Positions 9,594 through 26,208 of a DNA stretch of 64,000 bases are shown piece after piece (within the stretch, counting starts at the first letter, position 1; each line of letters opens with the position of its first letter). The notes under the pieces are model-generated. The model was not told where the DNA came from and searched no databases. It saw nothing but the letters and a program-made list of their open reading frames with translations. This DNA is from a virus: the IMG/VR virus record IMGVR_UViG_3300036770_004143, positions 1-64,000 of that record; one strand, given 5' to 3'. Position numbers and translations under genes: made by a program.

Positions 9594-12500
9594 TTACTCC
9601 AATTTTGGGTGTAAAATTAATTTTGTATAATTTGTCCACCAATATTTAATATTTAATAATTTGTTTTCATTTGAAACTATACCCCCAATTATATCATTCT
9701 CTTCAATTTTTTGATTTCCCTTGCTAAAATTGGAACTATTTTCAATTGAATCTCTAATAGTTTTTTCAGTTATTTTGTAAATATTTGCTTCTGTTTGCCC
9801 AGATTCTGCAATAAACTTAAAGCCAGTATAAGGAATTTTATTAGGGTTTCTATCTATCTTTAAACTCACAGCTATTGTATATGTATCTCCTGAATTAACC
9901 TTAACATCAAAAAATGAAATAACTGGTGCACTATCTAGTATATATAATCTCACCAAGGTATCTTCTATGGTTTTATTCATTGCATCCAAATATAATAATT
10001 CTTTTGGATTATTTGCCTCAAAAAACATATCAAGAACATATGGTAAAGTATATTCTGGTTCTGCTGGTGTTCTTACAATTTTAATATTATTATAGGTATA
10101 TTCACACACTCTATTTAATTTAGCACCCTCTGACTTATTCCTAGCACTAACATATAATTCCTTTTGGTCTTCTGTAAGTTTTGCTGGGGGTGTCAAAGCC
10201 TTTAATGATGCATTTGCATCTGCAAATTTTTTATCCAATTTGGCATAAAATTTATTCTTATATAATCTATCAAAATTTTGGGCAGCATCAAGGTTTGTAT
10301 TATTACTTAAAGCCTGATTATATAACCAATCTATAATATAAAATTTAACAAAACTTTCACTTTTGTCACCCTCCAAACTAGAAAATTTAGTCATAAAAGG
10401 AATTACATAAATACTCATAAATTGAATATATAATTCAATTGATTTGAAAATAGCAAAAGGTGTTTTTATCTTATCATTTTCATTACTAGTTGCACAAAAG
10501 TATAATGGTTGTCCTCCATTATAAGATGAAATTTCCCCCTTATTATAAGTTAACCACACATTTCCAAAATTATTATGATTTGCCTTAAAACCATCTTTTT
10601 CATAAGATGCCAAATAACTAATAAGGTATATATAGTCTGCCAATTTCTTATCTGGAACCAATGAATTTATCATTGTATGAATTTGTGTGGCTGATGAATA
10701 AACTATTAATTCTTCTGTAGTTTGTTCATATTCAGAATAACCTGAATATAAGTAGTTACTACACTCACTTGAATTTGTTTGTTTTGAACCTTGTGTTTGT
10801 GTGTTATTTGTTGCAGTAGCTTCTTCATTTTTATCATTAACAATAGATTTTGCAAAATTGCTTTCAATCTTTGTTAATAAGTTCTCATTAATACTTGTGA
10901 GGTATGTATCTGTGCTTGGAGGTGAATAAATACTTTGTCTAACACCTGTGAATGTTGTTTCAAATGAACCTGGTGCAATATTATGTGAAACTTCTGTAAT
11001 AAAATAAGGACCCCCAAACATAGGAACATGTTCCAAATTGAAATACATTGTTGGTTGTATCAATGCATTGCCCATACAGTTAATTGTTGACTTGTAACTC
11101 AAGTTCTTATACAAATTAAATAATGACACACTTTGTGTTGCCACCCCCCTATTTGATGATGAATTTCTTAAAGCCTCCTGTTGAATTAATGATTCAAGAG
11201 TTGCTGTACCACTATTCTGATCAACTTGTATGCCATAGAATATTGCTTGATTTCTAATCCCTGCATCTACCAAGAAACTAACACATTTATTTGATTGTGA
11301 CCAATCTTTCTTATTTGTCTGGTCCTCCAAGAAAGGTATCTTAGATGGTTTTAACATATCAATAGCATCATCACCATATCTAAAATCTTTTGGTCCAGCT
11401 GGGGTTGTTGACCCCCTACCAGAATATATACAAACAAGTTTTGGTCCTGATTTTCTATAATCAACATCAGAATAATTCCCCCAGACATCATTTGCTATTT
11501 CTGTTGCAGTACCAATAACTTCATTAATATCATCATTTGCTGATAATGCCCCATAAAAATTAACATAAGATGGCATTGGCAAAACATTAAAATTATTTTT
11601 AACCAAAATTCCACCAATAAAATTAAAGACAGGGGTTTTTAAGTTTGTTCTTGTTCCAATAAAAATCTTCTTTAAATCAAAAATATCAACATAATACAAA
11701 TCACCTATGTTCCTATTACCCCTATCCAAGAATATTACATCTTCAAATAATGTACGAGTTGTATATTCACTACCAGATATCCATTTATCATTTATGGCTT
11801 TAAATGTTTCATATAAATCATATTTTGAAAACTTGCTATCCAATCCTGAATTTATCTCATTAATTTCAACAATATCAATATTATTTATTTCCCTCTCCAA
11901 TAAGGATAATGTCTGATTCACATTGTCTTCCAAGAATGTATCCAATGCTTTTTGGTTATTATCCATCAGTATTAAGAATTGTTCCCTTGTAATGTTTGGA
12001 TTTTTTAATTTTTGTGTTGCATATATCTTTATTGGTTTTGCAAGTGCAATGATATTCTCTGATGAAAACTCAATATTATTATCAATAAAGAAATCTGTAA
12101 TATATGAACCAGTATTCTTATATGTCAAAGATTCAATGGTGGAGAATCCAACATGTAATCTTAATGTTTCCCAAGCAGGGGCATTTGTTAATTCTGATGA
12201 TTGAAGTGATATGTTATTTGGTAAAGTGTTTGCAACATATCCTTTGAACCTTTTCTGATTCTCTATGGTTGACCTCCCCCCTAAATGACTTATCAATGAA
12301 TTATATTCATATCTATCATATTGTGTTGGATTTCCATACTTAAACAAAACATCATAACTCAAAAACCCATCCAAAAATTCTCTAATATTTTGGAATTGAT
12401 AATCTGCTGTTTTATTGTAAAAATCAGTATCATTCAAATTACTATAATTAGATGGGACTTCCATCAAATTTCTATATAATAATTGGAAATTTCTATATGC

Positions 12501-15500
12501 TGCCACAGGATTTCCATATTCCAATCCAACCAAATTTATCTGATCTTTGTTTTCATTTATGTCATAAATTGATTTGCTAAAATCCAAAAACTCATTCTCA
12601 AATAAATTTAATGTGTCATAATCAAAAACAGAAAACATATCCTCAATTGAGGCATAATCCCCAGAACTTAAGATTGAAAATGAACTAATGTCTTTCTTTC
12701 TATTCAAATATTCTGTCGGTAAAGGCTTTTTCAAGTTTTTAAATGTAAATGAATTAAATGTATCTTGCATTGTGACATTAACAGCACCATTATGTGCAAC
12801 ATCCAATAATTCATCCAAAGAAGAATAATAAATATCTGAACTATTTTTTAAAAAATTATTATCAGTAATATTATTATTTGTTGATGGTAAAATATAATAT
12901 TTTGATGTTAAACTAAAGTTAACATCCTCACAATAATCACTAAATGTGGAACTATCATATATATTTTTTGGCACTAAAGTTGTATAACAATTAAATGTCA
13001 ATCCACTCTTTTCAAAACTAAATGATTTAAGCACTTTTAAACCCCTCTTTTCATTTACATTCAATTCATTATTTGTAAATCCAGAGAATAAATCATACCC
13101 ATTCAAGAATGCATTGTAATCATTCATCATAACTGGATAAAACCCAACATTCACATTATTATCAGATTTAAGGGATATAGTTTGATTTCCATTTATGATA
13201 TACTGGAAATTTTCATTTGCATTATAATTTGACTTATAATCAAAGTCTTTCCATACATCATCCAAAAAGTCATCCCCTGTCTTAACATAATTCTTATATC
13301 TATGCCAAATGGATCCATATTTCAATATCCAAGCATATGGTAACTTATGTAAAGCAGAGTACTTTATGAAGGTTGAAAAAACGTGTCCATTCTTCTCACT
13401 TTGCCCCCTGGTGATAAAAAAATCAGTAAGTGGGGATAAGGGTAGGCTATTCAAAAAAAGATAAGCAGAAGCAATATATGGATGTTTTTCACCTATCCTC
13501 CACTTGCTAACTCCAAGTTGGATTGCATTTGTAAAGATAGGTGTGTTAATTAATGCTCTAAATTGGTTTGATGAAAAATTATCCTGGAATATTTGCCCAT
13601 ATGTTGCCCCACCTTGTGATGCAAAAAACTTAAATGGTCTATTTGTTACAACCTGATTATATTCCTTAAAATTTGTAATCACATTCCTTTTTTGATTGAA
13701 AAGAATTGTATTCTTTGTATCAAATTTATTTGGAAATAAATTGATTAAATTATCATTAACCCATATTGGATCTGTAAAAGGATATGTGAAATTTATGCTA
13801 TTTTCAGTTGGTGCTTTCTGTATTACATCTGTAATTGTTTTGACATTACCCTCATTCAAATTATTTGAGAACTTATCTGTTGTTAATTTAAATTCACTTA
13901 TATCATATATCTTGCTTGGGGTATCTAATAAGTCACTTATATACCTTGAATTTGGTACTCCATCCAGATATTTATTATACCTTTCTGAAACACCTCCTGA
14001 CATTTCTTCCAGAAATTCCTTATAGTTATCATAATCCAACCCCCCTTCTGAAAATAATATATTCTTTAATTGTTGGATAAAAATTATGGAATTTGTCTTT
14101 AATGTATTACTTATATTCTTAAATTCATTTTCCTTTATCAATAAACCAATTCTTTTATCCTTTTCATAAATGGCTGAAAACCCTGAATGGTATGATGCTA
14201 AAACAAGTCTATCCCATAATTCATAAAAGAATTTAACATTTGTTGTTAACTCATATGGTAAAGTGGCAAAGGGGTATTCTATTGTATTTGGAACATAACT
14301 ATTCCTAATTGTCTTATCTAAATCAAGTGCATCCTTTGGGGAGGGGGTTTCCAAACGTTTGGAATAACCATTTATATATTCCTCAACAAATTCAACTTCA
14401 GGCCATTTACTATAATTAAATCCCTTTGTAGCATTAACAATAGATGGGTCTCCTGGATATATTAATTCATATTTATTTGCTTCCTTCTTATCATTTGTAT
14501 AAAACACAGAAGGCCAAGGAAATACAATTTTATCATTTTCATTATCATCACGTTGACTATTATCATCAACTGCAATTTTATCATTACCTAATACTGCATT
14601 TTTTCTATCAGTATCAAGTCTAACATTCCAGGCTGAACTATGAACATCTTCCATCAATCTAAGGAATCCTTCTGTTGTTGCCATAATTACTGCAACAACA
14701 TTTTTAATTGTTGGCTTAAACCCAATTCCTGTTTCCTTTTTCTCAATCTTTAATGCCAACTCCTCTGATAAGGCTTTTTCAAGTGCATTTAATTCATTAA
14801 TGAATTTTGATTCCATTATATTCCTTTCATTAATAAAATTTGTAATATTGAAAACTGGAGTGGTTTTTGATTCACCTGATAATGTATATTTGTAATATAT
14901 AGTACTTTCAATTCTACTACGGCAAATTTCTTCAGTTAAATTTTCAACTTCAATTGGCGAAATGGATTTGTTCTTTGATTTATAAGTCTCACACCAATTA
15001 ATATCAGGATTGGTAACATGAAACAAATCATAATTTATATTGTTAGCAATAGGTAATGTTCCATAAATTCCAAAAGTGGGATTATCATTTAATTCAGCTG
15101 TATATTTTGATATTATGGTTTTTAAATCACTTTCAACCAAAAATAACCTTCCATCCTTAATATTGTCAATCAATTCTTTTTTAACACCAAATATAACATC
15201 AGTTGCATTATTTAAAATAATTGGTCTTGTATCCAAGTATTTGTTAAACCAAGACCTAAGATTACCCCTAATTTCCTGGTAATAATTGGCAAGAAATTTC
15301 TTATACCTTTTCCCATCTGTTAACTTCTGAACATCAACCTTATTCAATGAGTTCAAGACATTCTGCTCAAACATCTCAAGTTTGTATGTTAATTCAGTTA
15401 ATGTTAATTCAGGAAAATTAGCATCAATTAAACCCTTTGATTTATAATCCTTATATACTTCTATTATCTTCTGATAACCAAGTTGGGTATTCACCTCAAA

Positions 15501-16367
15501 ATTAGTTGTATCCTCAAGTGAAACTTGAGTTTGATTATCTGTTTGAGTAATTATATTATTGACTTGAGATGCTGTTAAATTTGAAACGTTTGTAATATTT
15601 GATTGACTTATCTTATATTTTTTTGAATACATATTTGGACAAGCAATCAAATGCCCAACACTTATGTCAGATAACACATTATACTTAAATCCAAGAAACT
15701 CCAAAGTAACTGTATAATCTCCATTATTTGCATTATAAGATGCATTAAACTTCAATAAAACTAATTCATACCTAACAGCCTTTCCATAATATCCTTTAAT
15801 GGTCAAATAAAATGGGGGGTAAGGTAAATTGAAGAATGCTGCATATGGTGATTCATTTCCTAAACTAAACAATGCTCTCCCTTGAACATCTTCCATAATA
15901 ACTGTAACGGTTGGTACAAAAGATGAATTTGTCCTAATAGCAATACTCTTTATACCAAATAATGTATTATCTTCAATATTAGTAGCATAATTTAATGTAT
16001 AAGTTTCATTGTTCTCCTTTACTTGTTTGGAGTTCTGTTGATTTTTCCCTCCATTTTCAGTTAAAGAATCTTTTCCAGTAATTTCATCATAATATCCAGA
16101 TGTAAAATAATTATCTTTAGTATTTGGTTTCAAGAAATTTAATGTAGCAATATTCACATTCCTAACATTATCATTAACTGGACCCCCAACCAATAGTTTT
16201 GTTCTTGGAATCAACTTTGTTTCCAGATTGGCATACATAACAAAGTCTTCAGGTATTACTGCCCTGTCAATAACTTCCCCAGTATTTGTAATTACCTTGT
16301 TGGGGTCTATATATATAACATTCTGATAATCATATATAACATGTACATCACCTTGCTCATTTGCCAT
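9594..16367 (-). CDS. Giant baseplate/tail hub protein (2257 aa)
   Basis: The largest gene of the window. The N-terminal region (to about residue 260) contains a beta-rich segment ESPYAAFFNLPYPPFYLTIK and GDYTVTLEFLGFKYNV, typical of baseplate hub-type proteins. A second such segment near residues 1760-1815 (MYFNLEHVPMFGGPYFITEV, then SFETTFTGVRQSIYSPP) looks like the end of a tail hub domain. Residues about 1880-2000 (YLASYEKDGFKANHNNFGNV, then FAIFKSIELYIQFM) resemble a glucosaminidase-type fold and might cut peptidoglycan; this is tentative. It is a baseplate protein by content and by neighbours (LysM wedge, tape measure). The ATG at 16367 lies only a few bases from the right end of a TnpB element, so its normal leader was probably displaced by that insertion. 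Confidence 0.7.
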   Translation of the reverse strand: MANEQGDVHVIYDYQNVIYIDPNKVITNTGEVIDRAVIPEDFVMYANLETKLIPRTKLLVGGPVNDNVRNVNIATLNFLKPNTKDNYFTSGYYDEITGKDSLTENGGKNQQNSKQVKENNETYTLNYATNIEDNTLFGIKSIAIRTNSSFVPTVTVIMEDVQGRALFSLGNESPYAAFFNLPYPPFYLTIKGYYGKAVRYELVLLKFNASYNANNGDYTVTLEFLGFKYNVLSDISVGHLIACPNMYSKKYKISQSNITNVSNLTASQVNNIITQTDNQTQVSLEDTTNFEVNTQLGYQKIIEVYKDYKSKGLIDANFPELTLTELTYKLEMFEQNVLNSLNKVDVQKLTDGKRYKKFLANYYQEIRGNLRSWFNKYLDTRPIILNNATDVIFGVKKELIDNIKDGRLFLVESDLKTIISKYTAELNDNPTFGIYGTLPIANNINYDLFHVTNPDINWCETYKSKNKSISPIEVENLTEEICRSRIESTIYYKYTLSGESKTTPVFNITNFINERNIMESKFINELNALEKALSEELALKIEKKETGIGFKPTIKNVVAVIMATTEGFLRLMEDVHSSAWNVRLDTDRKNAVLGNDKIAVDDNSQRDDNENDKIVFPWPSVFYTNDKKEANKYELIYPGDPSIVNATKGFNYSKWPEVEFVEEYINGYSKRLETPSPKDALDLDKTIRNSYVPNTIEYPFATLPYELTTNVKFFYELWDRLVLASYHSGFSAIYEKDKRIGLLIKENEFKNISNTLKTNSIIFIQQLKNILFSEGGLDYDNYKEFLEEMSGGVSERYNKYLDGVPNSRYISDLLDTPSKIYDISEFKLTTDKFSNNLNEGNVKTITDVIQKAPTENSINFTYPFTDPIWVNDNLINLFPNKFDTKNTILFNQKRNVITNFKEYNQVVTNRPFKFFASQGGATYGQIFQDNFSSNQFRALINTPIFTNAIQLGVSKWRIGEKHPYIASAYLFLNSLPLSPLTDFFITRGQSEKNGHVFSTFIKYSALHKLPYAWILKYGSIWHRYKNYVKTGDDFLDDVWKDFDYKSNYNANENFQYIINGNQTISLKSDNNVNVGFYPVMMNDYNAFLNGYDLFSGFTNNELNVNEKRGLKVLKSFSFEKSGLTFNCYTTLVPKNIYDSSTFSDYCEDVNFSLTSKYYILPSTNNNITDNNFLKNSSDIYYSSLDELLDVAHNGAVNVTMQDTFNSFTFKNLKKPLPTEYLNRKKDISSFSILSSGDYASIEDMFSVFDYDTLNLFENEFLDFSKSIYDINENKDQINLVGLEYGNPVAAYRNFQLLYRNLMEVPSNYSNLNDTDFYNKTADYQFQNIREFLDGFLSYDVLFKYGNPTQYDRYEYNSLISHLGGRSTIENQKRFKGYVANTLPNNISLQSSELTNAPAWETLRLHVGFSTIESLTYKNTGSYITDFFIDNNIEFSSENIIALAKPIKIYATQKLKNPNITREQFLILMDNNQKALDTFLEDNVNQTLSLLEREINNIDIVEINEINSGLDSKFSKYDLYETFKAINDKWISGSEYTTRTLFEDVIFLDRGNRNIGDLYYVDIFDLKKIFIGTRTNLKTPVFNFIGGILVKNNFNVLPMPSYVNFYGALSANDDINEVIGTATEIANDVWGNYSDVDYRKSGPKLVCIYSGRGSTTPAGPKDFRYGDDAIDMLKPSKIPFLEDQTNKKDWSQSNKCVSFLVDAGIRNQAIFYGIQVDQNSGTATLESLIQQEALRNSSSNRGVATQSVSLFNLYKNLSYKSTINCMGNALIQPTMYFNLEHVPMFGGPYFITEVSHNIAPGSFETTFTGVRQSIYSPPSTDTYLTSINENLLTKIESNFAKSIVNDKNEEATATNNTQTQGSKQTNSSECSNYLYSGYSEYEQTTEELIVYSSATQIHTMINSLVPDKKLADYIYLISYLASYEKDGFKANHNNFGNVWLTYNKGEISSYNGGQPLYFCATSNENDKIKTPFAIFKSIELYIQFMSIYVIPFMTKFSSLEGDKSESFVKFYIIDWLYNQALSNNTNLDAAQNFDRLYKNKFYAKLDKKFADANASLKALTPPAKLTEDQKELYVSARNKSEGAKLNRVCEYTYNNIKIVRTPAEPEYTLPYVLDMFFEANNPKELLYLDAMNKTIEDTLVRLYILDSAPVISFFDVKVNSGDTYTIAVSLKIDRNPNKIPYTGFKFIAESGQTEANIYKITEKTIRDSIENSSNFSKGNQKIEENDIIGGIVSNENKLLNIKYWWTNYTKLILHPKLE

Positions 16368-16376
16368 ATTGAACTA

Positions 16377-16399
16377 CCCACAAACTATAGATTTGCGGG
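16377..16399 (-). ncRNA. Right-end hairpin, likely 3' part of the TnpB guide RNA (omega/reRNA)
   Basis: CCCGCAAA and TTTGTGGG on the minus strand pair over 8 bp (one G-T) with a 7-nt loop. It lies between the tnpB stop and the element end. In known systems the guide RNA overlaps the tnpB 3' end and continues into flanking DNA. Another inverted repeat, TCGTCAGGGACTGACGA on the minus strand, lies inside the 3' coding region near 16478-16494 and may be part of the same RNA. Confidence 0.5.
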
Positions 16400-16409
16400 A
16401 TTCTGAAAT

Positions 16410-17585
16410 TTAAGTATTCAGAATTTTGGAAGTTTCATTGGTTGTGCCAATTAAAGTTGGTCTTATTTCACCTCCACTTCTGTAATCGTCAGTCCCTGAC
16501 GATATAAGTTTATATCCTTCATTAAGGATGTTTTTACTAGCATTTAAATCTCTATCTAATTTTGTATGACAAGATGGACAAGTCCATTCCCTCATATCTA
16601 ATTTTAGATTTTGATTAATATATCCACAACAGTTGCAAGTTTTTGAACTAGGGAAGAACCTATCAATTTTGACAATCTGCTTATCATTCCATTCTGCTTT
16701 ATAGGTTAAAAGTTCTATGAACTTTGACCAACTAACATCAGAAATGTGTTTTGCAAGTTTATGATTCTTTATCATTCCTTTAATATTTAAATCTTCCAAT
16801 ATGATTGTATCATATTTTTTGATTAACTCTGTGGAAACTTTGTGCAAATTATCTAAACGAGAATTGGCTATCTTCTTATAAATAGTTGCAACTTTTAATT
16901 TTTGTTTTTGGTATCTATTACTACCTTTTATTTTTCTAGTTAAATGTTGTTGATTTTGTTTTAATTTTCTTGCATAAGTTTTAGTATATCTATTATTTTT
17001 ATATATAAACCCTTCAGATGTGACTAAAAAATCTTTAATACCTAAATCAATCCCAATTGTTTTTCCTGTTTTAGGTGTAGCAGTATGTGTTGTTTCTACC
17101 AAGATTGAAACAAAATATTCATTTGTTGGTGTTTTTGATATGGTGCATTGTTTAATTTTACCAGTGAAACTTTGGGATAAAATAAAATCAATAGGTTCTT
17201 TAAATTTTGGTATTCTTAATTTTCCATTTTCTATTTTAACAAATTGTGGAATTTTAAAACTATTTTTTACATGTTTGGACTTAAATCTTGGAAATTTGGT
17301 TCTTTTCTTAAAGAATCCATTATAAGCATCATCAAGATTTTTTAATGATGTTTGTAATGACTGTGAATTAATTTCATTTAACCAGGAATATTGTTCTTGT
17401 CTCTTTAATTCAGTTAATGATTTTGCATTGTCGTAGTAATTAATAGTTTGTTTGTTTGTCTCATATTCCTGTTTTCTTTCATTAAGAAAATAATTATAAA
17501 TAAACCTTATAGCACCAAAATGCTTATTTAAAAGCACTTTTTGGTCTTCATTAGGAATGATTTTATATTTGTATGTTTTTAACAT
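16410..17585 (-). CDS. tnpB: TnpB RNA-guided nuclease
   Basis: About 391 aa from the ATG at 17583-17585 (MLKTYKYKIIPNEDQK), a typical TnpB start; an upstream TTG would add only five residues. The RuvC-like catalytic residues are present: Asp in TIGIDLGIKDF, Glu in IILEDLNIKGM, Asp in LDRDLNASKNI. The zinc ribbon is CNCCGY (CxxC) and CPSCHTKLDRD (CxxC). The N-terminal helix-turn-helix (LNKHFGAIRFIYNYFL) is complete. The family makes guided cuts in empty donor sites next to a short TAM motif. No frameshift or lost catalytic residue is seen, so it is probably active. It is isolated within a structural operon on the same strand. Confidence 0.92.
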   Translation of the reverse strand: MLKTYKYKIIPNEDQKVLLNKHFGAIRFIYNYFLNERKQEYETNKQTINYYDNAKSLTELKRQEQYSWLNEINSQSLQTSLKNLDDAYNGFFKKRTKFPRFKSKHVKNSFKIPQFVKIENGKLRIPKFKEPIDFILSQSFTGKIKQCTISKTPTNEYFVSILVETTHTATPKTGKTIGIDLGIKDFLVTSEGFIYKNNRYTKTYARKLKQNQQHLTRKIKGSNRYQKQKLKVATIYKKIANSRLDNLHKVSTELIKKYDTIILEDLNIKGMIKNHKLAKHISDVSWSKFIELLTYKAEWNDKQIVKIDRFFPSSKTCNCCGYINQNLKLDMREWTCPSCHTKLDRDLNASKNILNEGYKLISSGTDDYRSGGEIRPTLIGTTNETSKILNT

Positions 17586-17605
17586 CTTTTTAAAATTCAA
17601 TATAT

Positions 17606-17929
17606 TTATTTTCCATAATAAAAGAAATAATTTTCTACTGCATTTTTATAATCTAATAAAGATGTCTCCAATGGAAAGGGTATTTTTAGCATAGCCCCAT
17701 CATATATGTTATTTTCAAGACCACCATGCTCTGGATTTGCTGCCAAAATAAGCCAGCCAAAGAAGGGGGTTTGATAATATTGCTGTGACACCTTATCCAA
17801 TCTGCTAACATTTTTCTTATAAAAGAAAACATTATCACTTGACTTGGATGGTATCTTGACAAAAGGTACAACTTTCTGCTCACCATTAAATGTGAATTGT
17901 GAATATCTATTATAATATTTTAAACTCAT
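17606..17929 (-). CDS. gp53-like baseplate wedge protein with LysM fold
   Basis: A 107-aa protein. Residues about 40-90 match the LysM-type fold of T4 gp53 and tail protein X families: YYQTPFFGWLILAANPEHG followed by IYDGAMLKIPFPL. In T4, gp53 links wedges in the baseplate. It overlaps the upstream 1558-aa baseplate gene by 4 bp (ATGA type), showing translational coupling. The TnpB element begins directly after its stop codon. Confidence 0.75.
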   Translation of the reverse strand: MSLKYYNRYSQFTFNGEQKVVPFVKIPSKSSDNVFFYKKNVSRLDKVSQQYYQTPFFGWLILAANPEHGGLENNIYDGAMLKIPFPLETSLLDYKNAVENYFFYYGK

Positions 17930-20900
17930 CTCATTAATTTATTTTTAACTAGAATAAATCCATCACTATTTTTATTCCATGTAGTTTTATTGCTATCATA
18001 ATTATTAACACCATTCAAAGTTAATATTGCATTTTTAGTGTCATTATCAGGAGATTCAACTATCTCATATTGACTTATATAACCTACTGTACCATTTGGC
18101 TTAATCTCTTTTAACTCAACAAGCATATCATTTATATATTTAGTTAAGTTTGTTAAGAACTTAATAGTAACTTCTTTATGTTTATTATTATATCTAATCA
18201 ACTTCTCACCCCAATAACTCTTAAATATCTTTGATATCTTTTCATTGTTTGAAATGAAGTTTTTATCAGGATTAATTGATTTTAAAAGAATTTGTTTTTC
18301 AAAATTTTCTAAACCATTTTTATCTCTAAATGCTCCATATAATAATAAATAGAGTAAACTATCTTGATCACTTGAAAATATATCCTTTGGATTATCTATA
18401 TTTATTTTTAAATACGGCAAGAAATTTGTTTCAATACGTTGTGCAATTCCAGATAATACATCCTGTATTCCAGTTAATGAATTAAGTAATTTATAAACAA
18501 AGAAATTTCCAGTTTTATCAACATACCCATCATAACCAAAATATGAATTGTGAGTTGAAATCACAAATAATGCTTTACTTAAAACCTTTTGATATTTCTC
18601 CTGAGCATCAAGAATTGCTTTTGTTAGAATGTTAATATTGTTATTAACCTTAACCATTTCATTATCAATATATAACTGATAATTATTTGACACATCAAAC
18701 TTTATAGTCTTTTCAGAACTAAATTCTTCATTTATTTGTTCAATAAATCCATCAGAATTAGTCTTTATATTATCTTTAATTATTTTTACATAATCATCTA
18801 TTGTTTTTTGATAATCTGTTGGAACACCCAATAACTTAAATTCACCTCCTGTTGTTGGGTTGTAAACCCCATTAACATTATTCAATGATTTTAATATCAA
18901 AGAAACCAATTCAATATTATATGCTTTTGAATTTTCTTGAATAACTGAATTAATTGTATTAACATAAGCAGTGGAGGCTTCAACTAGTTCTGTTGCCAAA
19001 GTAATATAATTCAATGTGGTTGCTGTAGTGTTAATTTCACCTATTGTCTTATATGCATTTACAACTTTAATATCATCAAAATTCTCAGTCTTACCTTTTT
19101 CCTTTTCTCTTATAAAATCCAATATTTTCTCATCCATATCATCCAAACTATTGTCAGTCTTATCAGCCCTTGCATCATAAACCTCTGTGTTTGCATAATA
19201 ATTAAATGACAAAGCATTTTGTAATTTATCAACAGCATTACTCAATCCACTTGCACCAACAAACTTGAAACTCAAAGTAACCTTTGCAATCATAGGTTGA
19301 AATCCAATCCCTTCAGGATTTATATCCCAATGTAATGGATCATAACTAATAGCTAAATTATCAGGTATAATCTTTGTATGAAAGAAATCCCCTACCCTCA
19401 ATACCAAAACTGGAGGTACGCCAAATGCTGTGTTTCTTGCATCCTTAAACTCCCTCACACCACCTTCCCTTATGGTAGGTATGGTATCCCCAGGTCTAAC
19501 ACATTGTTGAAGAAATGTCAATCTACCATTCAAACCTTCTGGGGTTGTGGAATGGAAAGCTGGACTAAAATATTTTAATTTTTCCTTTATGTTATTATAT
19601 ATGAATGGGTTTGTTTCCTCTATGGTCTCAAAATAATCACATTCTGTTAAAAGTTTTTGTAAAACCCTTTTTGATACATTCTTATATAATTTATTTTCTG
19701 TTGTTGTAATTTCTTTTTCAATCTTTTGTTTTGTTACCTTAACTTCAGATTCATTTGTTACCAATGTTGGTTCAACCTTTGGTGCAACACTTTTTTGAAT
19801 GGCATTAACATCTTTTATGGCAACTCTTCTACAAGCCATAGCTTGAACACTTGTTATAGCATTTTCTGTAAAAGCACTACAATTTGCAACAGAAATAGAT
19901 GATTTACCAGTTGTTGAATTGGCAACAACTCCTGTTTCCTCACCAAGAATATTTGTCTTTATGGTAAAGTTTTTTGACTTTATATTGTTTGTTAAATAAG
20001 TTGTAACACTACTACTACGTCTTTGACTTAATGCTTTGTTATAACTAATAGATGCTGGTTTTGATGCAGATGAGTTAAGTGTTAATTCAATAGTATTCCC
20101 CTCATTCTGTGCAAGAAACTCATTACATTCAGTTATGAAGTTATTAAGATATGCAAAATTATCTTTTACATGTAAATCCATAAAACTTTTTAATTGTGCT
20201 TGAGTATATAATGTTGATGCAGTATATGAATTAAATGCACTAACATAATCAGCATTACTTGATTTTGGAACATCATTATCAAAATAAAATGCATACTCCT
20301 TATACTTGTCAAATCTTGTATCTTTTTTATCTGGGGGTGTATCAACTTGTGATGGATTTATTGGGTCAACATTTGTAACCACTGTTCTCTTGATATAACT
20401 AACATCATCTTTAATAGATGTGCTTTCCTTAACAATTTTTTGAATTTCCTCAAGTTCAGATAATGTCATTGTGTTATATATCTTTGCTAAATCATATATG
20501 TCATATTTCAAACATCCAGCAAAAAAAGATGATAATATACCATTAATAACCTCTGAATTATTCTCTTTCTCTAAAATCCTATTTGTAATTAAATTTAACA
20601 CAGATGGATGATCCACAACAATTGAAAACTCCAATGACCCTGTTCTTGTTGTATTTTTATAGGTGAAAACAGGCTCTGGTCTTCCCAAAAACTCATTTGA
20701 ATTCCAAGTGGATGATGATGAATCTGTAACCTTTAAATCATATGGTGGAAACCACATTAACCTTCCCCCATTTGGACCTTTCTCACATTCTGGCAAATCC
20801 AAAAACTTATTTGTTGTTCTCCATGCCAAATTCTCAATTGATAACATATATTTCTTTGAATCATTTCCCTTCCTTGGGGCAATGCTCAAATCATATGTTT

Positions 20901-22602
20901 TATTGATAACTGAACCTTTTAATCTCCTTCCTTCATTTGTAATACCACTTGTCTTTTGCAAACGGTCATATGACATATAAGGTGAATCCTTTGTAAATAA
21001 TCTACAATATTCTTGGAATGAACCCCCAACCAAATTCTGTGGGTCTTGATATTTATATGCCTTAACTCTTGAACCTTTTGTTATTTCCTTATACCCATCA
21101 TTAAAAACCTTGCTAACTTGATCCATAGCATTACCCACATGTTTTAACCTATTTGCCCCATTTGGCTGTGAGTTAATTATCCTTTGTGTATCATCCAATA
21201 TCGAACCATCCTTAAAATCATAATTGGTTGATTCTGTTCCATCAAAAGTGGTTTGTTTTGTTCCATTATCCCCAAATATCTCACCACCTTTCCCTGCACT
21301 CTTTCCTGCATTATTCTTATATTTTGGTGAAACCCATGTTAAACCCCCTTCAATACCACCACCATCAATATCACTTTTTCCATTAAATCCAATGGCTGGA
21401 TTGAAGTTTTCACCCTCATATACCTTTGAAACCTCTGTTGAACTATATACACTCTTTTGAATGCGCCTTCCAAATTGGTCAATTGGTAAATCATCTTCTG
21501 GTGAAAGAATGTCAATAATGTCCAAATTATCATTTCCTACATAATAGGTACTCTTGTTATTTGTGAATAAATCCAAAAATGAACCTATTATGCCACTTCT
21601 TTCATAATTTGGCTTGTATAAATTCTTATTAATATTTTTATATAAGACTGACCGTTGACCAGCTCCCATATTATCATAAAATAATTGTGAACCTGTTTTC
21701 TTCTGTTGGAATAATCCACCAAGAAAACCCTTATCTCCTTTACCATTTAAACTTATTGATTCATCAAAATAACTTCCAATAATAGTTGGAAATGGTAATT
21801 CACCACCAACAAACTCCAATGCCAATTGTGCTGCACCAACAAGCAAATTATTTGGCTTTGTTATACTCCAGTTTGGTTGAATAATTGGATTTGGTCCTAT
21901 TATGAGATTATATACATCAAAGGGGTCATTCAAACTTGCAATAGTCTGGTCAAACTTCTTTATGATGTCATATCTTGTTGTTAACTTTGCAACCCTTTCA
22001 TTAAAATAATTTGTTAAAGTCTTTGCACCCAATCTTGTAATATAAGAATCCGCAGATAAATTCGATTTGGTTTCAGCAGTATCCGTAAGTATGCCAAATG
22101 CTGTATATTTAGAGGGTTTGAAACTATTAACACCTACACCCCAATAATATAATATCCCCTTCTTTGCTAAATTTGCATCAAACCACTCATCATCATTCTC
22201 AATATAAATTGCTGAATCGGTTAAATCATCTTTTGTTGTGTAAAAATTCTCAAACAAATTTTTATTTAAACTTTCTCTATTAATCTTTAATGCAACAGAA
22301 TTTTTTATACTATATTCACCATAATTTGTTTTTTTATTATTTAATACATTTACATCTTGTGTTTGAATATAACCACCAACTCTACCATATTGGTTTTTGC
22401 CATATAACTCATTTGCATATATTGGCTGGTCAATTAATTTGTCAGGAGAATCCACAACATTTAATATCTTTGAAAAAGGTGATACCTCATAGTTAAATGG
22501 GGGACTATTACCAAGAGGAGTTTTCTTGTATGGAACTAAATTTTTTGTTATTAAAAACTTCCTAAAATTCTCACTATTTCCAAAATCTAAGGGACTTCTC
22601 AT
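17926..22602 (-). CDS. Large baseplate protein with an OmpA-like module (1558 aa)
   Basis: A large structural protein between the tape measure and the LysM wedge genes. Around residues 765-890 it holds an OmpA-C-like module: YAFYFDNDVPKSSN, then IELTLNSSASKP and NKALSQRRSSSVTTYL, the pattern of peptidoglycan-binding OmpA domains (LxxRRAxxVxxYL). Around residues 1060-1125 the segment PPVLVLRVGDFFHTKIIPDN and PLHWDINPEGIGFQPMIAKV looks like the baseplate hub domain found in related phages. A coiled-coil-rich region follows to the C-terminus. Its T4 equivalent is not certain. The start at ATG 22602 lies 10 nt after the motif ATATTTATAT. Confidence 0.65.
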   Translation of the reverse strand: MRSPLDFGNSENFRKFLITKNLVPYKKTPLGNSPPFNYEVSPFSKILNVVDSPDKLIDQPIYANELYGKNQYGRVGGYIQTQDVNVLNNKKTNYGEYSIKNSVALKINRESLNKNLFENFYTTKDDLTDSAIYIENDDEWFDANLAKKGILYYWGVGVNSFKPSKYTAFGILTDTAETKSNLSADSYITRLGAKTLTNYFNERVAKLTTRYDIIKKFDQTIASLNDPFDVYNLIIGPNPIIQPNWSITKPNNLLVGAAQLALEFVGGELPFPTIIGSYFDESISLNGKGDKGFLGGLFQQKKTGSQLFYDNMGAGQRSVLYKNINKNLYKPNYERSGIIGSFLDLFTNNKSTYYVGNDNLDIIDILSPEDDLPIDQFGRRIQKSVYSSTEVSKVYEGENFNPAIGFNGKSDIDGGGIEGGLTWVSPKYKNNAGKSAGKGGEIFGDNGTKQTTFDGTESTNYDFKDGSILDDTQRIINSQPNGANRLKHVGNAMDQVSKVFNDGYKEITKGSRVKAYKYQDPQNLVGGSFQEYCRLFTKDSPYMSYDRLQKTSGITNEGRRLKGSVINKTYDLSIAPRKGNDSKKYMLSIENLAWRTTNKFLDLPECEKGPNGGRLMWFPPYDLKVTDSSSSTWNSNEFLGRPEPVFTYKNTTRTGSLEFSIVVDHPSVLNLITNRILEKENNSEVINGILSSFFAGCLKYDIYDLAKIYNTMTLSELEEIQKIVKESTSIKDDVSYIKRTVVTNVDPINPSQVDTPPDKKDTRFDKYKEYAFYFDNDVPKSSNADYVSAFNSYTASTLYTQAQLKSFMDLHVKDNFAYLNNFITECNEFLAQNEGNTIELTLNSSASKPASISYNKALSQRRSSSVTTYLTNNIKSKNFTIKTNILGEETGVVANSTTGKSSISVANCSAFTENAITSVQAMACRRVAIKDVNAIQKSVAPKVEPTLVTNESEVKVTKQKIEKEITTTENKLYKNVSKRVLQKLLTECDYFETIEETNPFIYNNIKEKLKYFSPAFHSTTPEGLNGRLTFLQQCVRPGDTIPTIREGGVREFKDARNTAFGVPPVLVLRVGDFFHTKIIPDNLAISYDPLHWDINPEGIGFQPMIAKVTLSFKFVGASGLSNAVDKLQNALSFNYYANTEVYDARADKTDNSLDDMDEKILDFIREKEKGKTENFDDIKVVNAYKTIGEINTTATTLNYITLATELVEASTAYVNTINSVIQENSKAYNIELVSLILKSLNNVNGVYNPTTGGEFKLLGVPTDYQKTIDDYVKIIKDNIKTNSDGFIEQINEEFSSEKTIKFDVSNNYQLYIDNEMVKVNNNINILTKAILDAQEKYQKVLSKALFVISTHNSYFGYDGYVDKTGNFFVYKLLNSLTGIQDVLSGIAQRIETNFLPYLKINIDNPKDIFSSDQDSLLYLLLYGAFRDKNGLENFEKQILLKSINPDKNFISNNEKISKIFKSYWGEKLIRYNNKHKEVTIKFLTNLTKYINDMLVELKEIKPNGTVGYISQYEIVESPDNDTKNAILTLNGVNNYDSNKTTWNKNSDGFILVKNKLMR

Positions 22603-25993: not shown

Positions 25994-26208
25994 ATTTTAT
26001 TTTTTTAATTTTTATTATTTTTATTTATTGTTTTTATATAACAAATATAATTACTTATAATAAATATAGGAAATATAAAAATATATTAAAATATTTCAAC
26101 TTTTTGAAAAAATAGTTCAAAAAACACTATTTACTTTTTTTATTGAGTGGTTTAATTTTGTATTATTATATTACTATTATTAATAATAATATTATATATT
26201 ATATGTAA

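Follow-up and report, generated by a model that had tools for sequence, protein, structure and literature searches.

Homing by TnpB nucleases into transposon-less alleles was proposed for ISDra2 of Deinococcus radiodurans in the 'peel, paste and copy' model (PMC8612924). We analysed a tnpB element in a 64,000-nt stretch of viral DNA (hereafter the window; positions 1 to 64,000 of the 270,075-base record IMGVR_UViG_3300036770_004143) that resembles ISDra2 in having a homologous nuclease, a guide taken from the right end and its flank, and a transposon-associated motif (TAM) at the left flank. ISDra2 TnpB cuts the transposon-less allele, and the guide of the window element matches such an allele, where cutting is predicted. 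However, ISDra2 carries tnpA and a full left end and uses the TAM TTGAT, whereas the window element has neither, appears to use TTTAT and lies in a phage structural-gene cluster. The solo tnpB elements of Sulfolobus islandicus (PMC10640517) also lack tnpA and have TTTAT as predicted TAM (for the enzyme tested, SisTnpB1, the TAM is TTTAA and the seed spans +1 to +10), but they reside in archaeal chromosomes, have conserved left elements and do not include a single phage site for which empty and scarred alleles were shown. TnpB drive of insertion sequences has been demonstrated in plasmids, where inheritance was biased by cutting of insert-free copies (PMC11870625); those were tnpA/tnpB elements studied experimentally, whereas the present case concerns phages and sequence evidence only. 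TldR prophage repressors (PMC13418256) are likewise TnpB-derived, phage-encoded and equipped with a guide RNA, but are nuclease-dead, unlike the window TnpB with its intact RuvC motifs.

We propose that the window element is an IS200/IS605-type TnpB, without tnpA and deleted for its left end, that now acts as an RNA-guided homing (drive) element of phages, and we put the probability of this reading at about 0.58. The homing principle itself is already published (PMC8612924, PMC11870625). Relative to the open-licence literature, with an earlier report elsewhere possible, the novelty lies in a phage locus that occurs in nature in occupied, empty and apparently resistant forms and in its non-canonical left junction.

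All features at the locus are on the minus strand, where a 107-aa gene (17606-17929) is followed by tnpB (16410-17585) and then by a 2,257-aa gene (9594-16367). A search baited with the upstream gene yielded 39 loci. In the tnpB-less relatives, the upstream and downstream genes overlap (...TTCTTTTAT running directly into TATGGCAAATGAGCAAGG), with the upstream TGA within the first codons of the downstream gene, and the empty site reads TTTTAT followed by TATGGC, that is, by TATGGCAAATGAGC. In the occupied allele, TTTAT stands to the left of the insert (17618-17622) and TATGGC to the right. The combination of TTTAT and the 18-nt target TATGGCAAATGARCAAGG (R at target position 13) was found exactly in 15 IMG/VR contigs. 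The match to the guide is perfect in L021-L029 and has a single mismatch, at position 13, in L030-L033 and L056; the more distant relatives L034-L055 have mismatches within the target.

The guide itself is fixed by the right end of the element, which (GGGTAGTTCAA) closes at 16369, so that a single nucleotide lies between it and the next gene's ATG (16367-16365), the lower bound of the 1-2 nt that an earlier note on this DNA had given. The boundary can be set after the terminal pentamer (TTCAA at 16369-16373; TTCAN in relatives), since six copies of a 46%-identical relative in an Oceanirhabdus genome all diverge directly after GGTAGTTCAC. With the right end at this position, the predicted guide reads TATGGCAAATGAGCAAGG; its 20-nt form, TATGGCAAATGAGCAAGGTG (16349-16368), takes in the nucleotide just before the downstream gene and the first 19 nt of that gene. 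It is identical to the sequence next to TTTAT in L021-L029; the guide matches the empty site exactly, as the earlier note had predicted. Two close relative elements in other phages, which are also the two closest, end near start codons as well, one 4 nt before (L004:6212-6222) and the other 1 nt before that of a 210-aa gene in a tail-gene cluster (L005:6212-6219), and their guides would likewise begin at a gene start. When the empty site of the L004 element was sought via its downstream gene, the relatives were too distant and no junction was seen.

We read the TAM as TTTAT because this pentamer adjoins the target in the empty relatives and because it lies 23-26 nt ahead of the left-end hairpin loop in 9/9 hairpin-bearing tnpB relatives (background 0.0044 per position). 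The TTGAA previously suggested lies inside the insert and is not part of the empty site. Across the 270-kb record, no TTTAT plus target was found at ≤3 mismatches except for the occupied junction, which has TTCAA at the TAM position.

The same arrangement is familiar from another class of mobile genes. Phage homing endonucleases, whether encoded in group I introns or free-standing, recognise the insert-free allele, their insertion destroys the recognition site, and they spread by recombination during co-infection. At the present locus, the TAM-target junction is present in the empty alleles and destroyed by the insertion; the difference is that homing endonucleases recognise their sites through protein-DNA contacts, whereas the window TnpB would do so through a guide RNA copied from the flank.

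The 391-aa tnpB product matched PF12323, PF01385 and PF07282 (helix-turn-helix, OrfB and TNB zinc-ribbon domains) well over cut-off, and its nearest natural solved relative is ISDra2 TnpB (8bf8, E 8e-77), in agreement with the earlier assignment of a TnpB element between two genes. The RuvC motifs (GIDLG at 178, ILEDL at 262 and DRDLNAS at 344) and the zinc ribbon are intact. Membership as a TnpB/OMEGA RNA-guided nuclease system is well supported, while identity as a TldR-type (nuclease-dead) repressor was rejected because all three RuvC motifs are intact. The open reading frame probably starts at the ATG at 17585, which is common to the relatives, rather than at the TTG at 17600.

A guide-RNA scaffold (omegaRNA, or reRNA) is predicted at 16369-16508, overlapping the tnpB 3´ end and the right end. 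It folds into five helices with 36 pairs, some helices lying within the tnpB coding region, and its final letters are GTAGTTCAA, with the last base at 16369. Across the window element and five relatives, 93.5% of pair cells were standard and 18 of the 36 pairs had changed on both sides; none of 500 shuffles matched the observed pairing, and shifting the partner by 1-3 columns destroyed it. In the fifth helix, the right-end hairpin (16377-16399; 9 bp with a 5-nt loop), 100% of cells were paired and 7/9 pairs showed compensatory change. An Rfam search matched no family. TnpB processes its own mRNA into its guide (PMC10278001), and a search between tnpB and the guide found no terminator-like site, so the guide can derive from mRNA that reads into the downstream gene. 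As the 3´ part of the guide RNA is the downstream mRNA, guide formation would cut that message, which is compatible with a co-opted regulator or RNA processor that acts on the downstream gene instead of cutting DNA, and domestication of phage TnpBs has a precedent in the TldR repressors (PMC13418256). However, the window TnpB retains its nuclease motifs, unlike the nuclease-dead TldRs, and the element's own genome has no second target, making this explanation highly improbable.

The left end is where the element departs from its relatives. No tnpA (Y1 transposase, PF01797) was found in the 270-kb record, although the record may be incomplete, and no Y1 transposase was found in seven other tnpB-bearing records searched. 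The left-end hairpin present in nine relatives is also absent, while the right hairpin is present, so that the element lacks two defining features of mobile IS200/IS605 members; both the lack of tnpA and the near absence of left-end DNA had been noted before. In L004-L007, L009, L010, L015 and L016, ~140-160 nt separate the TAM from the start codon and the hairpin lies 108-129 nt upstream of the ATG (in L017 the hairpin is closer to the start codon). In the window, 32 nt are left between the TAM and the tnpB start, TATGGAAAATAA-ATATATTGAATTTTAAAAAG, the second part of which (17586-17605) is the remaining 20 nt of left-end DNA before tnpB, without a hairpin. Comparison with the empty sites places the left boundary at 17617/17618, ~13 nt farther out than the previously assigned 17604.

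The first part of this stretch, TATGGAAAATAA (17606-17617), is an imperfect copy of the first 12 nt of the target (TATGGCAAATGA in the empty sites), with 10/12 positions identical. Among 633 TTTAT sites in the window, the left junction alone precedes a target match of at least 10/12. The upstream gene ends within this copy, its last codons being TAT TAT GGA AAA TAA in the window and TAT TAT GGC AAA TGA in the empty relatives; the changes from GGC to GGA (still Gly) and from TGA to TAA (still stop) are both synonymous, so the C-terminus YYGK is kept. Ordinary IS200/IS605 insertion occurs 3´ of a fixed pentamer and without target duplication. Here, TTTAT is found at the left boundary, yet the insert contains, right beside it, a 12-nt stretch that agrees with the target at 10 positions. 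An examination of relatives for the empty-site junction, which had been proposed earlier, thus bore out the prediction for the right junction but gave a different left junction, one that carries the imperfect target copy. The distance from the TAM to the TnpB cut is 15-21 nt (PMC8612924), and we suggest that this left junction may have arisen when a cut end was shortened to ~12 nt and fused to the interior of the element. The changes at positions 6 and 11 could also weaken targeting of the left copy, given the seed of the S. islandicus enzyme. For the L013 element, whose tnpB is 50% identical, the flanks left of 5001 and right of 6248 contain an imperfect direct duplication (AACCAGCCATTT...), a possible non-canonical junction.

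The main rival is that the element is a stranded IS200/IS605 remnant, brought in by ordinary transposition with TnpA provided in trans and, after losing its left end, now passive, with the guide match as a fossil of the insertion. The guide match and the TTTAT TAM would follow automatically from canonical insertion, and relatives in other phages retain left-end hairpins, also without tnpA. A possible source exists as well: in Algoriphagus resistens (L167:2480-4092), a Y1-like tnpA of 136 aa lies divergent from a tnpB 61% identical to that of the window, indicating that an autonomous relative exists in Bacteroidota, and this pair possibly represents the bacterial source of the window's tnpB family. 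That only one occupied genotype is seen also fits a remnant. On the other hand, the element shows no decay of its reading frame, RuvC motifs or RNA pairing, and transposition without target duplication would not be expected to leave a 10/12 copy of the target at the left junction. We consider a passive remnant unlikely.

The sequence at the left junction was found elsewhere in IMG/VR only in two other occupied contigs and in L020 (contig 3300028557_000302), a close relative with a scar allele. The occupied contigs, including the window, are identical over 8-13 kb and were counted as one genotype. L020 reads TTTTAT, then TATGGAAAATAAATATATCCAA, then TATGGCAAATGAGC, is without tnpB, and its contig gave no match to PF07282. 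As read from the sequences, two changes suffice to convert the occupied allele to L020, a deletion between TT dinucleotides and a T-to-C substitution. In L020 the intact target is preceded by TCCAA and TTTAT stands ahead of the altered copy, so that L020 should escape cutting; it is probably a later product of tnpB loss, immune through loss of the TAM. The order could be the reverse, with the 22-nt spacer of L020 arising first and tnpB entering later by another route, and TATGGAAAATAAATATAT is indeed common to L020 and the occupied allele. But the L020 spacer has no TTTAT at the entry point, the ancestral site yields TTTAT, element and TATGGC without extra assumptions, and the single deletion at TT/TT with one substitution derives L020 from the occupied allele, making the reversed order improbable.

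L020 also resembles a resistant allele, as would be expected if TnpB were a weapon of phage against phage, destroying co-infecting sister genomes at this gene and kept for exclusion, not for self-copying. In keeping with this idea, the target is the start of a conserved structural gene; 15 related contigs have it together with the TAM, and the element's own genome lacks it. The mismatches in L034-L055 would, however, give such a weapon a narrow range, and sequence cannot separate it from homing. We rate this explanation, too, as improbable.

Under the homing reading, TnpB would process mRNA running into the downstream gene to yield the guide and would cut TTTAT plus TATGGCAAATGAGC in a co-infecting sister phage, after which recombination would copy tnpB into the cut genome. 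The imperfect copy of 12 target nucleotides found at the left junction may be the trace of such a copying event, in which homology would have served to join the right side, while the cut left side would have been closed by end-to-end joining within the element. This end-to-end joining would have removed the left end recognised by the transposase and kept the C-terminus of the upstream gene. L020 would represent a subsequent deletion of tnpB, immune since the TAM was lost. In a more far-reaching version, which we hold only tentatively, TnpB gave up transposition altogether and lives purely as an RNA-guided homing drive of phages. The left junction would then record a cut made by this TnpB, after which a trimmed protospacer was fused to the element; the synonymous changes in the target copy would make self-targeting weaker, and L020 would be a drive-resistant allele already segregating in nature.

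Several points weigh against homing or limit the evidence in its favour. Fresh IS200/IS605 insertions always have a guide that matches the empty site, and the match alone is therefore not proof. The occupied contigs represent one genotype, and no case of spread into a second lineage was seen. The tnpB dN/dS (ratio of nonsynonymous to synonymous rates) of 0.15-0.19, calculated against the four closest full-length relatives, indicates purifying selection on the family, but averages the whole family and not the window copy since loss of the left end. Starting at the target, L020 and the window share 223 identical nt, beyond which they differ at 2-20 positions per 100 nt, a pattern suggestive of recombination at the site; a second block shared by the two is present at ~577-640, however, so the region is mosaic and the 223-nt tract is not unique. 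For this reason, a clean co-conversion tract was rejected as proof of homing. Finally, cutting, copying and dependence on the homing mode are all inferred from sequence.

The flanking genes had both been labelled baseplate genes. For the upstream gene, the label finds weak support in a match to phrog_7145 (baseplate wedge subunit, E 0.0013) and in the context, with a phrog_150 baseplate hub match near the locus. For the downstream gene, which is presumed to encode a baseplate or tail protein and whose first bases constitute guide and target, the label did not gain support, as family searches with the 2,257-aa protein gave no match. No near-identical cultured phages were found by megablast and no near-identical counterpart of the downstream protein was found in cultured phages by tblastn; searches for tRNA genes and Rfam RNA elements likewise gave none. 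Next to the upstream gene, at 17929-22602, a 1,558-aa protein of the structural region has a weak OmpA-like match at residues 829-899 (E 5.8e-5, under the curated cut-off). A further presence/absence site is located in the same structural region as the tnpB locus, where ~1.6 kb found in two tnpB-less relatives (L112:8616-10299 and L118:9948-11568) is missing from the window near 26.05-26.1 kb (26032-26115).

Natural loci at which occupied, empty and scarred alleles can be compared directly are valuable, given that TnpB homing has otherwise been proposed, and shown as a drive in laboratory plasmids. For the present phage site, public data contain all three, with the TAM and the guide defined to the base. 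The locus makes it testable whether homing is enough to maintain a tnpB that lacks tnpA and whether TAM loss is a way in which phages become resistant to an RNA-guided drive, and it could help to explain the solo tnpB genes in many phages.
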